A stretch of 35,697 bases of DNA from positions 1 to 35,697 of the IMG/VR virus record IMGVR_UViG_3300043427_001582, one strand, 5' to 3'. The first letter of the stretch is position 1. Each line of letters begins with the position of its first letter. The position numbers and the translations under genes are program-made. Under the pieces are notes generated by a model, which was not told the DNA's origin, did no database searches, and saw nothing but the letters and a program-made list of their open reading frames with translations. The stretch is from a virus. Shown here one piece after another: positions 1 to 25,567 of this stretch.

Positions 1-135
1 ATCCGTCAGAACGGATTATGAGGATCCAAGAGCGCCCGACACCCTACACATGAGGGTGATGATATAGTCCGAGCTGCATCGATAGCAAAGATGCAGAACT
101 AGGGGATAAAGAGCCCTTAGGGTAACACAACTGCG
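1..135 (+). ncRNA. Group I intron 1 of the capsid gene, 3' part only
   Basis: This is the tail of a self-splicing group I intron whose 5' part lies outside the window. A P8 hairpin (CACCCT, loop, AGGGTG, near 40-57) is followed by the S element GATATAGTCC (P7 3' strand), a P9-type hairpin, and the hairpin around GGGATAAAGAGCCC that all five introns in this gene share, then GTAACAC. By comparison with the other four, the terminal G is position 133 or 135. After that the reading frame of the capsid protein resumes (D-N-D-F-P-K-L-L-G-A). The exact 3' splice site cannot be fixed because the guide sequence is not in the window. Confidence 0.8.
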
Positions 136-3100
136 ACAATGATTTTCCGAAGCTGCTCGGCGCAGAACTCTACCGTCCGCACCCTGCGTAAATAGTGCGC
201 CCTAAGCACGTAAGTGTTTAGTGATAACCGCGTGAATTGCTGGGACCCCTCCATGGGCTATGCTCTTGGGGAATCAGCAGCCAAGCCGATTGGAAACAAT
301 CGGAAGGTTCAACGACTACCTTTGTCGATTTTTTTAGAACTCACGGTTTGGGATTAGTCCCTGCCCACGTGGGGCTATAGATCGACCTCATCTTGATCTT
401 TGTAGATGAGCGAGCCCAAGTGCAACAGCAACGGGCAATAAGGAGGCAAGAGTGCGCGGCAACCTGAGTATAGGTTGATGATATAGTCTGGCCTCACAGG
501 ATGGTAAACTGTGAGAACTGAAAGATAAAGAGCTTTCAGGATAACACACGACGTGGTAGAGATGGCTGCAGAGCCTGTGGTTGTACACGATTTCTTGGCC
601 TAATTAGGTACGGGAACTTCCGGGTGAAAGTCCGGTCGAATAACTCCGTGAATTGCTGGGACGCCGGACCCGTAAGGGAGGCCAATCAGCAGCCAAGCCA
701 ATCGGAAACGATTGGAAGGTTCAACGACTACCGTTGTGGTTTTCTCTGCTTTGAAAAACCACCCTTTGTTTCCACGCCGCGATTGAACTCGTTGGTTGAG
801 GTAAAGGCGAGCCTGACCATCCCTTTAGTGGATGAAGGCGATAAGGCGGCACGAGCGCGGAGCACCCACGAGAATCTGCAGCGTGGGTGATGATATAGTC
901 TGACCTTGCAGGATTGTAAACTGCAAGAACTAGAGAATAAAGAGTCTCTAGGGTAACACTTGTATCGCTTCTGGGGAAACCCAGGGAGCAAGGAATCGCG
1001 TGAGCGTACTGCAGAACAGACCATCGGTACTGCGAACAGCAGGAACATTGTCAAGGACAAAGTTCTTGTTACCCTTCGTGAGTTAATGTGTAGCTCCCTT
1101 GCGGCGTAATCCGCATTGAATAACGGAGTGAATTGCTGGAAGCCCTCTACCAGGTAGTCTTATGCCCTATACTGGTCGGGTAATCAGCAGCCAAGCTAAT
1201 CAGGAATGATTAGAAGGTTCAACGATCACCGTTATCTACCTTGAATAAGTCCGACGAACTGCTTCTACTCTCGTTTGCTTTAGGAGATGGTTGTCTCCAC
1301 AAAGAGCCTAAATGGGGCTCGGTTAGTTTTAGACTTGGTCGAGCGGCGCGTTACGAGGATTATGCTCGTTGGCAGCTTGAGCAAGTTAATTCTATACTAG
1401 GTACAAAAGCAAACCTCAGGTACTTCTTGGCAAAAGGTAAGTATCCTTTTGTTGAGTTTGCCGCTGGGAACAAGGAACTTCTTACACCTCTGTATTCCCT
1501 TTTGTATTCCAAGGGTACAAAAGTTTTTAGTGAGGAAGTTTTAGCTCCTTTATCCTTACGAGAGTTGGCAATTTTATGGATGGACGACGGCTCCTTAGAG
1601 GTAAGGAAACGTCAGCGACCCCGTTCCGTAAAAATTGAACGATCCGCGTGGTTGGCTATATGTGAAGACGAAAAACAGACCGATTTAGTCGGTTGCTGGA
1701 TTGAGTCTTTAACGGGAGCCCGCTACACGAAAGTTAAGCATTCAAAAAGCGGGAAGTATTACTTAAGGTGGCACAGTGCTCAGTGCAAGACACTGATAAA
1801 CGCTGTTGCTCCTTTTTGTTTTCCTTCTCTGGAGTACAAGGTAGATCTTAATCGCACTTGTTCTGTCAAGGAGTGGTTAAGCGAGTCCCAACTTTCTTTG
1901 AGAAAAGTGGACGATAAGGCGGCACGAGCGCTCCGCACCCCAACAGAAATTTCTGTGGGTGATGATATGATCTGACCTTACGGGATTGTAAACCGTAAGA
2001 ACTAGAGGATAAAGAGCCTCTAGGTTAACAATGTGACACTGGTCCTGCAGACCCGAGCGATCCCACACAACCCAGCACTTTTAAAGTTGCTCGGGAAACC
2101 CTGATTACCGCTCAGCGCTTACTGCTGGATACTGGTAATCTCACTGCCTTCCATCAATCTATTGGCTCTCTTACGCTTTTAGATGATTATAGGCGCTGGC
2201 GTGATCGGGTGTTCATTAACGAACTCCTGAAAACCGTTTCTAAGGGTCAGTCCTCTGACTCTCAGGGTGGCTATTACTACCCTGGCGACCTGGCTGTTGG
2301 TGCTCTTACCTATACCAACGCCGAGCAAGCGAAGTTTGACGTCAAAGACGACTTACTGCGCGTGGTCAAGTCGCTGCGCAAGCGTAATACGCCGACTTTC
2401 CAAGACGGCTTCTACCGCTGCGTGTGCGATCCTACGTTCCTGATGCACCTTCGTCAGAACAGCGACTTTCGCGAAGTGGCCCGTTACACCGGTAACGGTC
2501 AGATCAACCCCCTCATGTCGGCTATGCAGCCTAACGCTGCTATCTACATGGGTCAGGGTTTTGGTCAAGCTACATTCGTGGCTGGTGAGCCGATCATGCC
2601 GACCGGCTTTGCCTTTGAAGGAGTGCGATTCTTCGAATCGACCAACATGCCTTCGCAGACTCAAACTGCGACCATCGGTGGTGCTGCTGCTTCCTACGAA
2701 GCTGCAATTGGTATGTTCTTCGGTCCTCAAGCCGTAGGCGTAGGTATTGGTGGGAACAACGCTCAAGTTCTCCTCAATAACAACGACGATTTCTCGCGTA
2801 AATATGTTGCGCCCTAATCACGTAAGTGATTAGTTCACAGAGGGTGAATTGCTGGGACCCCGCCTTTTAAGGGGAATCAGCAGCCAAGCCAGAGAATATA
2901 CGCTCTGGAAGGTTCAACGACTAGATCCCGAGAGGAAACTCAGTAACGGATCCACGAGTGCCCTCCACCCAACCAGCAGACGCTAGGGGGTGAAGATATA
3001 GTCTGAGCTACTGCGATGGTAAAGCAGTAGAACTATCGGATAAAGAGCCGATAGGTTAACACACTGTTCATCATGATGATTTGGAGCCTGTACGCAGGTT

Positions 3101-3153
3101 TCGAACTTCTGAACGCCGATTTCGCCACGGTCGCCTACTCTTTCAACGTTTGA
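134..3153 (+). CDS. Major capsid protein, split by at least five group I introns (5' end outside window)
   Basis: Six exon pieces read as one frame: about 134-189, 551-591, 963-1083, 2036-2799 and 3067-3153, after an earlier part upstream of the window. The joined product runs FPKLLGAELYRPHPA, then Y-VVEMAAEPVVVHD, then YRFWGNPGSKES...VTLRE, then YTGPADPSDP... through FSR, then FIMMIWSLYAGFELLNADF and stop. Each junction restores the frame exactly, and no exon has an internal stop. The body (RRWRDRVFINELL, YYPGDLAVG, GFYRCVCDPTFLMHLR, IMPTGFAFEGVRFFEST) has the look of a phage major capsid protein with an HK97-like fold; that assignment is by family resemblance, position and context. A Shine-Dalgarno (GAGGAGG) directly after the stop serves the next structural gene. 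Confidence 0.8.
190..550 (+). ncRNA. Group I intron 2 of the capsid gene
   Basis: The intron is about 361 nt. The 5' exon ends GCGT and pairs with the guide TGCGC a few bases into the intron, giving the U-G pair that marks 5' splice sites of group I introns. Core elements are all present: P (AATTGCTGGGA, 235-245), Q (AATCAGCAGCC, 272-282), R (TTCAACGACTA, 308-318) and S (TAGTC of P7 at 484-488, complementary to GACTA at 314-318). A P2-like hairpin CTAAGCACGTAAGTGTTTAG follows the guide and is nearly repeated in intron 5. No endonuclease ORF. The terminal G is 550 and the frame resumes with ACGTGGTAGAG. Confidence 0.88.
592..962 (+). ncRNA. Group I intron 3 of the capsid gene
   Basis: Core elements: P at 651-661, Q at 684-694, R at 720-730, and S with TAGTC at 896-900. 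The 3' end is G962, after which TATCGCTTCTGG continues the capsid frame. The 5' site is less certain than in the other introns. The frame requires it at a codon boundary, and CGAT (ending at 591) can pair with GTCG at 635-638, giving the expected U-G pair; but this makes a long P1 containing its own hairpins. The segment GATAAGGCGGCACGAGCGC and the P7-P9 part are nearly the same as in intron 4, so the two are close relatives. An 88-codon open frame across the core is a shadow, not a gene. Confidence 0.85.
1084..2035 (+). ncRNA. Group I intron 4 of the capsid gene, carrying an endonuclease gene
   Basis: The longest intron (952 nt). The 5' exon GAGT pairs with the guide GCTC (1093-1096) with the U-G pair at the splice site. 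P and Q lie at 1131-1141 and 1182-1192. The P7 strands differ from the sister introns: GATCA at 1224-1228 and TGATC at 1968-1972, still fully complementary. P3 is TAACGG (1121-1126) with CCGTTA (1229-1234). The P8 loop holds the LAGLIDADG ORF. The P9 region and the final hairpin match intron 3 closely. The terminal G is 2035, and ACACTGGTCC resumes the frame (E-Y-T-G-P). Confidence 0.88.
1241..1975 (+). CDS. LAGLIDADG homing endonuclease inside intron 4
   Basis: A 244-residue protein with two LAGLIDADG helices: LLSFALGDGCL at about residues 9-19 and LAILWMDDGSL at about 109-119. The acidic residues of both (GDG and DDG) are kept, so one chain can form the whole active site. Such enzymes cut intronless alleles of the host gene and so spread the intron; some also help folding (maturases). 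The reading frame opens with TTG at 1241. No ATG or GTG lies between the upstream in-frame stop (1211) and the first motif, and no Shine-Dalgarno is close. Its last codons run through the P8/P7 strands of the intron core and stop at 1973-1975, so RNA and protein sequence constrain each other there. Confidence 0.9.
   Translation: MNKSDELLLLSFALGDGCLHKEPKWGSVSFRLGRAARYEDYARWQLEQVNSILGTKANLRYFLAKGKYPFVEFAAGNKELLTPLYSLLYSKGTKVFSEEVLAPLSLRELAILWMDDGSLEVRKRQRPRSVKIERSAWLAICEDEKQTDLVGCWIESLTGARYTKVKHSKSGKYYLRWHSAQCKTLINAVAPFCFPSLEYKVDLNRTCSVKEWLSESQLSLRKVDDKAARALRTPTEISVGDDMI
2036..2799 (+). CDS. Largest coding exon of the major capsid protein
   Basis: This is the 764-nt exon between introns 4 and 5 and codes for about 255 residues of the capsid protein. 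The frame enters with AC ACT GGT (completing a Tyr codon begun by the T at 1083) and leaves with TCG CGT at 2799. An ATG-initiated subframe from 2209 exists, but the coding continues smoothly upstream of it (TGPADPSDPTQPSTFKVARETLITAQRLLLDTGNLTAF and on), so a start at 2209 would truncate the protein. The last residues of the unspliced frame after FSR (KYVAP) are intron sequence. Listed separately only to make the exon visible. Confidence 0.85.
2800..3066 (+). ncRNA. Group I intron 5 of the capsid gene
   Basis: The shortest intron (267 nt). The exon end GCGT pairs with TTGCGC (2808-2813), with U-G at the splice site and two further A-U pairs. Core elements: P at about 2847-2857, Q at 2875-2885, R at 2913-2923, and S with TAGTC at 2999-3003 (complementary to GACTA at 2919-2923). 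The hairpin CTAATCACGTAAGTGATTAG near the 5' end repeats that of intron 2 with small changes. It has no ORF. The terminal G is 3066, and TTCATCATGATG continues the capsid frame to the stop at 3151-3153. Confidence 0.88.
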
Positions 3154-3167
3154 GGAGGTAACTAACC

Positions 3168-4046
3168 ATGGCGATTAACCCGAATCAGCTTGCAGTCACC
3201 AAGATTTATCCTGGTAACTACACCAACGTTCTCCGGTATTGGCACGACCCCAAGTCCGTTACGTATTTAGACGCTAACGGCAACACCACCACACTCGCCA
3301 ACCAACCGGTCGGCGGCCCCGTGGGTGTTATCTTCCGTCCCGGCTGGATTGCCCAGCAGGCCGTGGGATATGTTGATCTGTCGTATCAAGCTGCTGGTAC
3401 TACCAACCAGCTTGACTACTATGCTCAACCCTATAGCTCGGGTCTGAACAATACCAACGCTCCGTTCTATAACGCGAACGTTGTCATCCCGTCTCCTGAT
3501 TTCCACAAAGATATCCGTGCGGATATCACAACGGGAATTGTTGTGCCTTCTGGTGCTTACGTTTACCGGACTGGCGTTCGTCTGGACGGCGGCGATGTTG
3601 TCAGCAGCGGCGTTGCCGGTGTTGGTACCGCGACTACCGCCCCCACGCTGGGTCTTGGCCCCGCTGTTGGCGTCGGTCTGACCACTACTCCCTCTGCTAG
3701 CGGTTTCTTCGCTGCTGTTGCGGGCTCGAACAGCCGTATTACCAACGGTTCGTACAGCTCCTCGAACGCGTGGAATCCCGCTCAGATGCACGTGGTCACT
3801 GCGGACACGACCTACAAACTGTTCAGCGTGTTTAACCAAGGCTCTGCGATCTCTGGTTTCCGCCAGGGTTCCGGTGTCTATGATCCTCGCGCTGGTGTGG
3901 GCCGTCTTGCGGGCAAGGACAAAGCACTCGCTATCTGCGAAGTGTGCTGGCTTGTTCCCGATGAACCCCCGCAACGTGATGATGTCGCTCTCCAGCCTGC
4001 GGGCGTGGTTGAGTCCAACATCTACACCTCGACTGTGCCCCAGTGA
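3168..4046 (+). CDS. Virion structural protein following the capsid gene
   Basis: A 292-residue protein translated from an ATG 9 nt after a perfect Shine-Dalgarno (GAGGAGG) that overlaps the end of the capsid gene, so the two are translated together from one mRNA. It is rich in Gly, Ala, Val, Thr and Asn with many short beta-prone runs (VGVIFRPGWIAQQAVGYVDLSY, IVVPSGAYVYRTGVRLDGGD). It has no signal peptide or membrane span. Position and strong ribosome site suggest an abundant head protein, possibly a decoration or second capsid protein. I do not recognise the family, so the role is inferred from context only. Confidence 0.75.
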   Translation: MAINPNQLAVTKIYPGNYTNVLRYWHDPKSVTYLDANGNTTTLANQPVGGPVGVIFRPGWIAQQAVGYVDLSYQAAGTTNQLDYYAQPYSSGLNNTNAPFYNANVVIPSPDFHKDIRADITTGIVVPSGAYVYRTGVRLDGGDVVSSGVAGVGTATTAPTLGLGPAVGVGLTTTPSASGFFAAVAGSNSRITNGSYSSSNAWNPAQMHVVTADTTYKLFSVFNQGSAISGFRQGSGVYDPRAGVGRLAGKDKALAICEVCWLVPDEPPQRDDVALQPAGVVESNIYTSTVPQ

Positions 4047-7613: not shown

Positions 7614-8000
7614 ATGAATGACGACCTCTTTGATTACAAAGCTACAGAGAACCTTTTTTACGGTCCTGGCGGCGTAAAGTCCTCGGTTCCTGCTGGTGGC
7701 GCTGCGGCAAGAAAAGACGACCCTGAATCGAAGTGGCTGGGGTGGGTTTCGCTGCTGGAAGGCGCGGCTAACGTTGCGCGTGGGATTCGCGGTATGCCTG
7801 AGGGGCCTCCGGGTGCGGCTACTCAGGCTCTGCAACGAATGGCCTCCGAGCGTCAGAACGCAGAGCAGCGACAGCAGCTTCTGGCGATTCTTCAGGCTAC
7901 CGGGGCTTTTGAACAAGGCCGAGCCGGTGGCATGAAGATGAGCGGTCAGAATCCCGCTGTGTCTGACATTCTCGGACTTACCGGCTCTCAAGCTTCATAA
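7614..8000 (+). CDS. Small virion-module protein sharing an LFYGP motif with its neighbour
   Basis: A 128-residue protein. Residues 7-21 (DYKATENLFYGPGGV) repeat the C-terminal motif of the upstream protein. It continues with a Gly/Ala-rich part, a helical Gln/Arg-rich part (ALQRMASERQNAEQRQQLLA) and a Gly-rich tail. It begins 23 nt after the stop of the upstream gene and is probably co-transcribed with it. The shared motif may be a docking peptide or a proteolysis site; no function is known. Confidence 0.7.
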   Translation: MNDDLFDYKATENLFYGPGGVKSSVPAGGAAARKDDPESKWLGWVSLLEGAANVARGIRGMPEGPPGAATQALQRMASERQNAEQRQQLLAILQATGAFEQGRAGGMKMSGQNPAVSDILGLTGSQAS

Positions 8001-8036
8001 CTACAGTAAACTGCGTTATAGCGGACGTAACTTGCA

Positions 8037-8591
8037 ATGAGTTCCACCAGCACAAATAAAAGCCCCTGCCTCATTGACCGTCCGTTTTTACGCGGGGCGC
8101 GGATCACGAGTTCGACGACTCGTTGCAATCCCACAAACCCCAACTTGACTGATTTGGTTCAGTTAGTCCGCGTGGGCGATTTGCCTTCTGAAGATGCGGC
8201 GATTGTTGAAGATATTACAATCGTAAGTAACGAAGATTATCCGGATAACAGTGGTCTTCGTACTGCCGATGTAGCTCTCTACGTCTATGCCCCCAACCAA
8301 GCTGCGCCGTCGACTTCTTCGGCTCTGATGATCGGCCGTTTTGAAGTCGGACTTAGCGGCAGCACTTTTGGTTATCCAATTTCGATGCAGTTGTTTGCAT
8401 CGAACGCTCCTGTTCCTTTGGTGGGCGATACGAACTTTGAGTCTCCGATTTCCATCGGTAAAAACGAAGCTATCTATTTAGAGAAAGGTTACATCCTGTG
8501 TTTCGGCTATATCGGTAACGGGCCTTCTTCTGTTTCTGGTGGTTTGAGTCCTTCCGGTATTAACATCTTCGCACAAGGCGGATTCTATTGA
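8037..8591 (+). CDS. Beta-rich virion protein, unknown function
   Basis: A 184-residue protein dominated by beta-prone stretches (TADVALYVYAPNQ, ALMIGRFEVGLSGSTFGYPISMQLFA, EAIYLEKGYILCFGYIGNG) and ending in Phe-Tyr, as subunits of particle surfaces or tails often do. It starts at the ATG at 8037, which lies 24 nt after TAAACT (8007-8012) with no Shine-Dalgarno. It is followed within 3 nt by the next structural gene. I cannot name a family; a tail or head-surface role is inferred from the neighbours. Confidence 0.72.
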   Translation: MSSTSTNKSPCLIDRPFLRGARITSSTTRCNPTNPNLTDLVQLVRVGDLPSEDAAIVEDITIVSNEDYPDNSGLRTADVALYVYAPNQAAPSTSSALMIGRFEVGLSGSTFGYPISMQLFASNAPVPLVGDTNFESPISIGKNEAIYLEKGYILCFGYIGNGPSSVSGGLSPSGINIFAQGGFY

Positions 8592-8594
8592 GTC

Positions 8595-10130
8595 GTGTCA
8601 CGCCGTAAAGGGTCAGATAACTTCGGCTTCTCGGGATTTAAAAGCACTAACGATATAAGCGGAATTAAGACCGTCAAAGGTACGGACAATAGTGGCGAGT
8701 TGCTACGTCCGCTACCTTTTAACCGTCGCTTCCGTCCTGCGACGGGGACTAAGGACTTTAGTGTTCTTAGTGACTACGATTACGCGTCCCTTTGGACACG
8801 TTGGCGCCGTGGGTACGAGATGGCTATGTACTCACAACAGGCGTACGACGGATTAGTATATACTTTTAAATACTATGTAAGCGGTTCTGCTGGAATCGGA
8901 GCGGCGCTTCCGGGGGCTTGTTTTATGTACCCCACGACGCGTTCTGACATGCGTATGTGGGCGGTAGGGATTCGTCCAAGAGATTCTTTTAACTTTTTGG
9001 ACTATGGTTACTCCATTACAGAAGTTACAAACTACAGCGAAGATGTTTATGCAGTTAAGTTGAATACACGCTTCGGCGCTCCGATTTCGTTTTTTGCGGG
9101 AGAGGTATTATCTAACAGGTTTAATGCTGACGGTACTGCAAAGACTTTTGGATATAATAACTATACGGTTGTAGGTGTAGGGAGAAATAATACAATCTTA
9201 CCTCCAAGTTATATACCTTCTTTTGATACTTTGTTTTTGTCTCATACAGCAAAGACAAGCTGGGCTGTTGTAGACGCAAATACCTTGGCTGTTCCGGCTA
9301 CTGGTCCCCCGAGCGTGGGCGAGTACTTAACTACAGAAATGCGGACTCAGTGCACTTGTCCGGACTTCTTAGCTCGCGAAAATTTTAATCTCTACGAAGC
9401 ATCTTTGCGTATGCGTTATCCGTATACGCGAGTGCAGAATACGGATCCGGGCTTTTATGATGCGGGTCCCGAAGAGAGTGTCCGGCGCAGTAACTCTGCA
9501 GATAACCCCGGCTATGCTCGTACGTTTGGCTTTATTTATCTAAACGAAATTTACAACACACCGACTTTTTCTGAGGAAGTTTACTCAGATCCCAATGTTT
9601 ATTATTACCAACCGAGATGGTGTAAGCACATATACGCTGCTATGTGGGATATGCAGCTTCGGTATAACCAAGAAAGCGCGACTAGCCCGTGGTTGCCTCA
9701 GCCTTCTGATGAACCAATGAATGAGTGGTATCGAGAGAAGTTTGAGAAGGATTTAGAAAAGCAGTTCACGTTCTTTAAACGCGAGCGCGACTTAGTTTGG
9801 TGGCAGCGTTATTCGCCTACTAAGGACAGTATGCCGCAGCACATGACATATCCTGACATGTATAATATGATGTCGAAGACTTTGAACTTCGGCAATTTAT
9901 CTCAAAGCGGTGTGATTGAAGCACCTAACTTTGAGATGTTTACCTTAGATGAATTTAACCCATTTGCTCCCACGGATGTTGAACGTTTTGTTACATACAA
10001 TGGCGGGGTTTACAGCAGCGGTACTCTTGTAACCACGTCTACACGTATCCTCGACGGTGGGAGGTACTCAAATGGGATTAAAATCCCACCGAGCGGGTTC
10101 CCTTCGCTTATTAACGGAGGTGTGTACTAA
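8595..10130 (+). CDS. Large virion protein with SWIM-like CxC...CxH pattern
   Basis: A 511-residue protein beginning with GTG (MSRRKGSDNFGF). Rich in aromatic residues. It holds C-T-C-P-D-F at residues 253-258 and C-K-H-I at 343-346. This spacing-altered CxC...CxH pair resembles a SWIM zinc finger, which normally has 6-25 residues between the halves; here about 87 lie between. The Trp/Tyr-rich C-terminal half (MNEWYREKFEKDLEKQFTFF, DLVWWQRY) is soluble. It forms a tight cluster with 8037-8591 and 10131-10688 (gaps of 3 and 0 nt). It is probably a tail or fiber-type structural protein, and the zinc idea is an inference. Confidence 0.75.
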   Translation: MSRRKGSDNFGFSGFKSTNDISGIKTVKGTDNSGELLRPLPFNRRFRPATGTKDFSVLSDYDYASLWTRWRRGYEMAMYSQQAYDGLVYTFKYYVSGSAGIGAALPGACFMYPTTRSDMRMWAVGIRPRDSFNFLDYGYSITEVTNYSEDVYAVKLNTRFGAPISFFAGEVLSNRFNADGTAKTFGYNNYTVVGVGRNNTILPPSYIPSFDTLFLSHTAKTSWAVVDANTLAVPATGPPSVGEYLTTEMRTQCTCPDFLARENFNLYEASLRMRYPYTRVQNTDPGFYDAGPEESVRRSNSADNPGYARTFGFIYLNEIYNTPTFSEEVYSDPNVYYYQPRWCKHIYAAMWDMQLRYNQESATSPWLPQPSDEPMNEWYREKFEKDLEKQFTFFKRERDLVWWQRYSPTKDSMPQHMTYPDMYNMMSKTLNFGNLSQSGVIEAPNFEMFTLDEFNPFAPTDVERFVTYNGGVYSSGTLVTTSTRILDGGRYSNGIKIPPSGFPSLINGGVY

Positions 10131-25273: not shown

Positions 25274-25274
25274 G

Positions 25275-25347
25275 GCCGCTTTAGCTCAGTCTGGTAGAGC
25301 AACGTACTTGTAATGCGTTTGTCAACGGTTCGAATCCGTTAAGCGGC
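25275..25347 (+). tRNA. tRNA-Thr (anticodon UGU)
   Basis: Clover-leaf complete: acceptor GCCGCTT / AAGCGGC (7 bp), D arm GCTC / GAGC, anticodon stem ACGTA / TGCGT with loop CTTGTAA (anticodon TGT), T arm AACGG TTCGAAT CCGTT. The 3' CCA is not encoded. It reads ACA and, by wobble, ACG codons. It lies just after the terminator, so it may be transcribed by read-through or by an unseen promoter. The 3' half overlaps, on the other strand, the end of the zinc-finger gene 25322-25567. Confidence 0.95.
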
Positions 25348-25567
25348 TTCTGTTGTCCTTAACCATGAATTCTGCCCTGCCCTTCATTAGGTACCCCCAA
25401 TCTCTTGTATCACATACCCCAGTATTTTCTCCGCAAACGTCGCAATACCCTTCCCACATTGAAGAGTATTTTGTCGCTGAGCGCCCATAACGCTGCCCGC
25501 AATCTGCACAACATGCAGTTGCCCCAGCTAATCTTTGCGACATGAGGGATTCAAAAGAACCTTCCAT
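25322..25567 (-). CDS. Small zinc-ribbon protein
   Basis: 81 residues with two CxxC pairs: CCADCGQRYG and YCDVCGENTG, then CDTRDWGYLM, a layout common in small cyanophage zinc-ribbon proteins of unknown role. The C-terminal codons (LTDSNR) are antisense to the 3' half of tRNA-Thr, so both share the DNA 25322-25347. The start is ATG at 25567. Confidence 0.7.
   Translation of the reverse strand: MEGSFESLMSQRLAGATACCADCGQRYGRSATKYSSMWEGYCDVCGENTGVCDTRDWGYLMKGRAEFMVKDNRSRLTDSNR

Follow-up and report, generated by a model that had tools for sequence, protein, structure and literature searches.

At least five group I introns interrupt the major capsid gene of an S-EIV1-like cyanophage, a gene that is a likely hot spot for mobile introns

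Landthaler and Shub are said to have described, in 1999, multi-intron genes in phages of the Twort group. Phage genes with up to three introns have been reported (PMC11878797; PMC3653736), and single introns interrupt the capsid genes of Tuc2009 and of the Cluster J mycobacteriophage LittleE (PMC3706429); in LittleE, splicing of the capsid intron was shown by RT-PCR and N-terminal sequencing (PMC3706429). In the literature searched, we found no phage gene in which the number of group I introns exceeds three, and capsid introns occurred only singly. The subject of this study is a 35,697-base IMG/VR virus record, the whole of which is referred to here as the window. It begins inside a major capsid protein (MCP) gene, which occupies the first 3.15 kb and is interrupted by group I introns (Table 1).

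Our overall account, to which we assign a probability of about 0.92, is that this MCP gene is a hot spot of mobile group I introns that home into it and undergo endonuclease loss, and that it likely contains six introns. Each intron would occupy its own fixed position in a conserved stretch of the capsid sequence, to which it presumably spread by homing with an endonuclease encoded in the intron (LAGLIDADG on the sense or antisense strand, or HNH on the antisense strand), and the endonuclease gene would often be lost after the spread. The ribozymes would have to remove themselves from the capsid mRNA, with the result that several tiny exons would be joined in frame.

The original prediction that the interrupted gene is a major capsid gene was borne out. 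The spliced exon product was 65.3% identical over 99% of its length to a reading frame that is uninterrupted in Synechococcus phage S-EIV1, and it matched phrog_1357, 'major head protein' (E 5e-20). Foldseek analysis of a modelled intronless relative returned phage capsids as the best PDB matches (E 1e-4, with low TM-scores), that of cyanopodophage Pan3 at the top; the model had a mean pLDDT of 55 and a poor N-terminal arm. The phrog_1357 match and this model of moderate quality indicate that the gene product is an HK97-fold major capsid protein. The homologous MCP and the similarity of the neighbouring genes, which were compared by eye, place the source virus in the S-EIV1-like cyanophage lineage. 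In the S-EIV1 record itself (KJ410740, our locus L005), the capsid frame at 7920-9146 (383 aa, GTG start) is annotated only partly, and a reverse-strand ORF and a 3' capsid fragment are listed where it runs. An intronless relative of the capsid (56%) is located on a 793-kb contig of the cyanobacterium Nodosilinea nodulosa PCC 7104 (NZ_JH976538, L475) and is perhaps part of a prophage. The window also carries a tRNA-Thr (UGU) gene at 25274-25350, and an ARAGORN tRNA-Cys call at 2645-2742, which sits antisense within a capsid exon, is probably false.

We scored the introns with the Rfam covariance model RF00028, using a cut-off of 50 bits. At least five group I introns had been expected, and matches were obtained at four sites of the window, while the fifth intron, truncated by the contig end, belongs to a site at which complete copies in relatives match the model. 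The proposed introns 190-550, 1084-2035 and 2800-3066 and the partial first one were thus identified as group I by covariance matches, and the introns do share one core, as had been noted. No intron in the window scored above the cut-off beyond the matches at 180-515, 575-927 and 2790-3030, and BLASTN of introns 2800-3066 and 1084-2035 against phage records gave short core matches only. The truncated intron has the same 3' end and exon (CTG, then CGACAATGAT) as the nt-8 introns of L037, L076, L083, L089 and L102; complete nt-8 introns in relatives are 354-355 nt long, and the three that were scanned (L037, L083 and L089) scored 57-70 bits. The nt-64 intron still carries the two terminal parts of a LAGLIDADG gene that has been deleted, and its core is 86% identical to that of the same-site intron of L083, which carries a full endonuclease gene. 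The nt-265 intron is nearest to the same-site intron of L096, which is without an endonuclease and scores 73.4 bits. Its P7 is GAUCA/UGAUC, compared with GACUA/UAGUC elsewhere; both strands have changed with the pairing kept, as would be expected for a working ribozyme. The frame is open and continuous through 134-189, 551-591, 963-1083, 2036-2799 and 3067-3153. The claim that intron removal restores the frame exactly holds for 190-550, 1084-2035 and 2800-3066, and for the second intron only by virtue of a boundary that had been picked to fit.

Table 1. Features of the MCP locus in the window (nt and residue numbers refer to the MCP coding sequence and product).
Feature	Position	Strand	Remarks
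Group I intron, 3' part, inserted after MCP CDS nt 8	1-133	+	Contig starts inside intron
MCP exon, 56 nt, residues 3-22	134-189	+	
Group I intron at MCP nt 64	190-550	+	RF00028 66.2 bits (match 180-515)
MCP exon, 45 nt, residues 22-37	551-595	+	
Chimeric intron	596-962	+	RF00028 64.3 bits (match 575-927)
MCP exon, 121 nt, residues 49-89	963-1083	+	
Group I intron at MCP nt 265	1084-2035	+	RF00028 37.1 bits, E 5.8e-7, under the 50-bit cut-off
LAGLIDADG homing endonuclease ORF within nt-265 intron	1241-1975	+	PF03161 E 8e-13; phrog_11023 E 9e-13
MCP exon, 764 nt, residues 89-343	2036-2799	+	
Group I intron at MCP nt 1029	2800-3066	+	RF00028 66.3 bits (match 2790-3030)
Last MCP exon, 87 nt, up to stop TGA	3067-3153	+	
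Next gene, anchor outside MCP for locus sampling	3168-4046	+	

Relatives were collected by IMG/VR scans, which yielded about 360 MCP loci, some of them from one contig. Their introns were mapped by a spliced protein-to-DNA aligner in which introns were allowed only after T and ending in G; L007, in which an exon frameshift misled the aligner, was placed by hand, and the mapping of L455 was ambiguous. Introns were found at 21 insertion sites: nt 8, 12, 18, 19, 51, 57, 64, 92, 107, 109, 144, 154, 233, 265, 321, 397, 418, 432, 831, 854 and 1029. Covariance matches back 19 of these sites (27 matches in relatives were over the cut-off), those at nt 92, 831 and 854 lying only below it; the scanned copies at nt 233 and 321 gave no RF00028 match, and both sites rest on spliced alignment and LAGLIDADG genes. 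Closely spaced sites, 18/19 and 107/109 among them, may reflect shifts within a single lineage. The largest number of introns per gene in relatives was five (L089); four were mapped in L406, whose contig is 59 kb long, and three of these have Rfam matches of 56, 50 and 33 bits. Every gene with several introns was taken from a metagenome assembly. The introns at nt 107 and nt 109 (e.g., L012 and L050) are closely related and 2 nt apart, and their guides differ to match the exons (GAGUC for GACUU and GGGAA for UUUCU), so that the pair looks like an insertion-site shift within one lineage. At nt 92, L016, L017, L019, L020, L022 and L023 carry an intron of 1127 nt that contains a LAGLIDADG_3 gene on the opposite strand, and a 334-nt form occurs together with the nt-109 intron in L452, L470 and L471.

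The initial queries came from the middle of the capsid gene, and sampling was therefore repeated with the next gene as the anchor. Among the 64 complete capsid genes in the anchored sample, some of which represent the same population, 51 had no intron, 10 had one, and two, four and five introns were found in one gene each. The insertion sites are crowded near the 5' end: 7 of the 12 sites in the anchored sample fall within the first 154 of 1113 nt (binomial p 4e-4), as do 12 of all 21 sites (p 4e-6). Codon conservation was 0.91 at insertion sites versus 0.83 at random ones (p 0.0006); since the N-terminal region is more conserved than the rest, the crowding of the sites and their conservation are not independent. 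The 3' end of the introns was also considered as a capsid-specific feature, and was rejected when a broad scan showed the same end in phage introns of many genes.

On a tree, introns from the same site grouped together, with 16 label changes against a minimum of 15 and a shuffled mean of 23.5, and none of 200 shuffles gave a number as low as 16; the tree is without the site-8 and most site-12 introns, which the core finder missed. The grouping of same-site introns of different phages is consistent with homing at a fixed position. Recent duplication of introns within the genome was rejected, as each intron groups closer with same-site introns of other phages. The nt-1029 intron, with a 5' domain similar to that of the nt-64 intron, may be an exception: their first 50 nt (2800-2850 and 190-240) are 80% identical, the 5' exons of both end in GCGU, and the two may have shared a guide domain. 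Pairing with the exons was examined as well. Site-144 introns form a P1 of 6-7 bp with the 5' exon and a P10 of 6-7 bp with the 3' exon, and P1 of at least 5 bp was found in 72% of introns versus 39% when wrong exons were used; P1 was strong at nt 18, 51, 144 and 154, and the nt-265 and nt-1029 introns have a weak P1 of 4 bp. The U at the 5' exon end and the G at the intron end were imposed by the aligner and are not independent evidence. Endonuclease genes of the LAGLIDADG kind lie on the sense strand at nt 64, 107, 109, 144, 233, 265 and 321 (nt 107 by similarity to nt 109) and on the opposite strand at nt 92, 418, 831 and 854, and an opposite-strand HNH gene is found at nt 12. Intron copies with and without the endonuclease gene occur at the same site, which, together with the remnant at nt 64, points to endonuclease gain, decay and loss.

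The second intron departs from what had been predicted. Its natural boundaries are 596-962, not 592-962; a cut at 592 keeps the frame but misfits the P1 pairing, and the supposed 41-nt exon is in reality one of 45 nt that was followed by a 35-nt microexon, now lost. From 596 to about 695 the intron follows the site-109 introns and from about 721 to 962 the site-144 introns, the identity switching at 696-720, and on this comparison it is two introns fused. The window capsid is without residues 37-48 (SKQPGQTVQLDR in relatives), 12 conserved residues of which eight (P40, G41, Q42, T43, V44, L46, D47 and R48) are invariant in 30 diverse capsids, and the microexon between nt 109 and nt 144 is absent. 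In relatives, the two ends of the missing stretch, nt 109 and nt 144, are precisely where separate introns sit: both introns, with the small exon retained between them, are present in L089 and L096, and L090 has the nt-144 intron and one at nt 107 or 109. The natural join of 595 to 963 gives a frameshift, with a stop after 46 residues counted from residue 4. Seventeen contigs had the site-144 3' end pattern; L087 among them gave no capsid match, and the other 16 do not show the fusion. Nor was the fusion found in any clearly mapped contig among the 25 with the nt-109 start. The frameshift on natural splicing, the loss of invariant residues and the occurrence in a single contig argue that the fusion arose by assembly collapse or belongs to a dead variant, an assembly error being the most likely cause. 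The real virus would then probably have six introns (nt 8, 64, 109, 144, 265 and 1029) and the 35-nt microexon.

One could envisage instead that a real recombination deletion produced a viable phage with a shifted 5' splice site and a capsid lacking the 12 residues. The two halves meet at a homologous position in the ribozyme core, and the resulting core is complete and scores 64 bits; in relatives, the longest identical stretch shared by the nt-109 and nt-144 introns measures 20-28 nt, too little to make a merger by an assembler easy; and a frame-keeping cut at 591 or 594 is possible on paper. However, the P1 that fits (UUUCU/GGGAA) puts the cut at 595, where the frame shifts, the P10 pairing with the new 3' exon has disappeared, and neither the invariance of the missing residues nor the restriction of the fusion to the window contig favours a viable phage; we regard such a deletion as unlikely. 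Far less probable still is that this MCP copy is a decaying pseudogene and its introns dead relics. One fused intron with a frameshift and one intron with an endonuclease remnant would be in keeping with decay, but the other exons are open, the largest (2036-2799) encoding protein 94-95% identical to intact relatives, the P7 pairing of the nt-265 intron was kept through two-strand changes, and the same architecture is seen in relatives on contigs of up to 59 kb (L406). Moreover, a six-frame motif search of the contig, itself incomplete, revealed no second MCP copy.

Apart from these readings of the window copy, it may be asked why introns would persist in a capsid gene. It had been suggested that they are under selection for fast splicing and time late gene expression, which is speculation. 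In favour of a role in regulating capsid expression, the median in-frame stop lies at most 49 nt past the 5' splice site whichever insertion site is considered, and follows it immediately at nt 144, and therefore unspliced mRNA cannot make capsid. On the other hand, 51 of the 64 complete loci in the anchored sample are intronless and the introns are therefore dispensable, and no more than 12 of 19 sites have their in-frame stop ahead of those in the other frames, a test for protection from ribosomes that is suggestive only; we consider a regulatory role improbable. A tentative reading, which we find rather doubtful, is an arms race of endonucleases. Introns would cut the capsid genes of co-infecting rivals, and an occupied site would protect the carrier, so that introns would pile up at adjoining conserved sites (nt 107, 109, 144 and 154) and leave exons of only 35-56 nt. 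Recombination between neighbouring introns would then delete microexons and kill genomes, capping the intron number.

If our account of a mobile-intron hot spot is correct, the lineage offers a natural series in which to study how introns home, lose their endonucleases and recombine with one another, and how exons are skipped, in an indispensable gene, with five or six introns in one capsid gene, exons as short as 8, 35, 45 and 56 nt and at least 21 alternative sites. The case is also a warning: surveys built on capsid sequences, and gene callers, will overlook this common S-EIV1-like lineage or assemble it wrongly, and even the public S-EIV1 record mis-annotates the capsid gene. In the literature searched, which did not include the S-EIV1 genome paper, there was no report of S-EIV1-like capsid introns, and the MCP of S-EIV1 (KJ410740), a homologous capsid with 65% identity, is intronless. 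The capsid genes of LittleE and Tuc2009 resemble the window MCP in bearing a group I intron, but have one each, whereas five are seen and six inferred in the window and 21 sites are used in the lineage. Twort, Brochothrix A9 and the Bastillevirinae likewise have several group I introns per gene, some with homing endonucleases (PMC11878797, PMC3653736), although these number at most three and lie in polymerase, terminase or reductase genes rather than in a capsid gene. Several LAGLIDADG-bearing group I introns also share one gene in Synechococcus sp. C9, but that is a 23S rRNA gene of a cyanobacterial host, with three introns, and not a phage capsid gene (PMC1995217). In another published case, a phage intron endonuclease reportedly takes part in competition between co-infecting phages (PMC11620839). 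The view that at least five introns in a major capsid gene are unusual is upheld, and what is new is the use of 21 sites over about 360 MCP loci, with up to five introns in a gene, sites crowded within the first 154 nt and endonucleases of three kinds.
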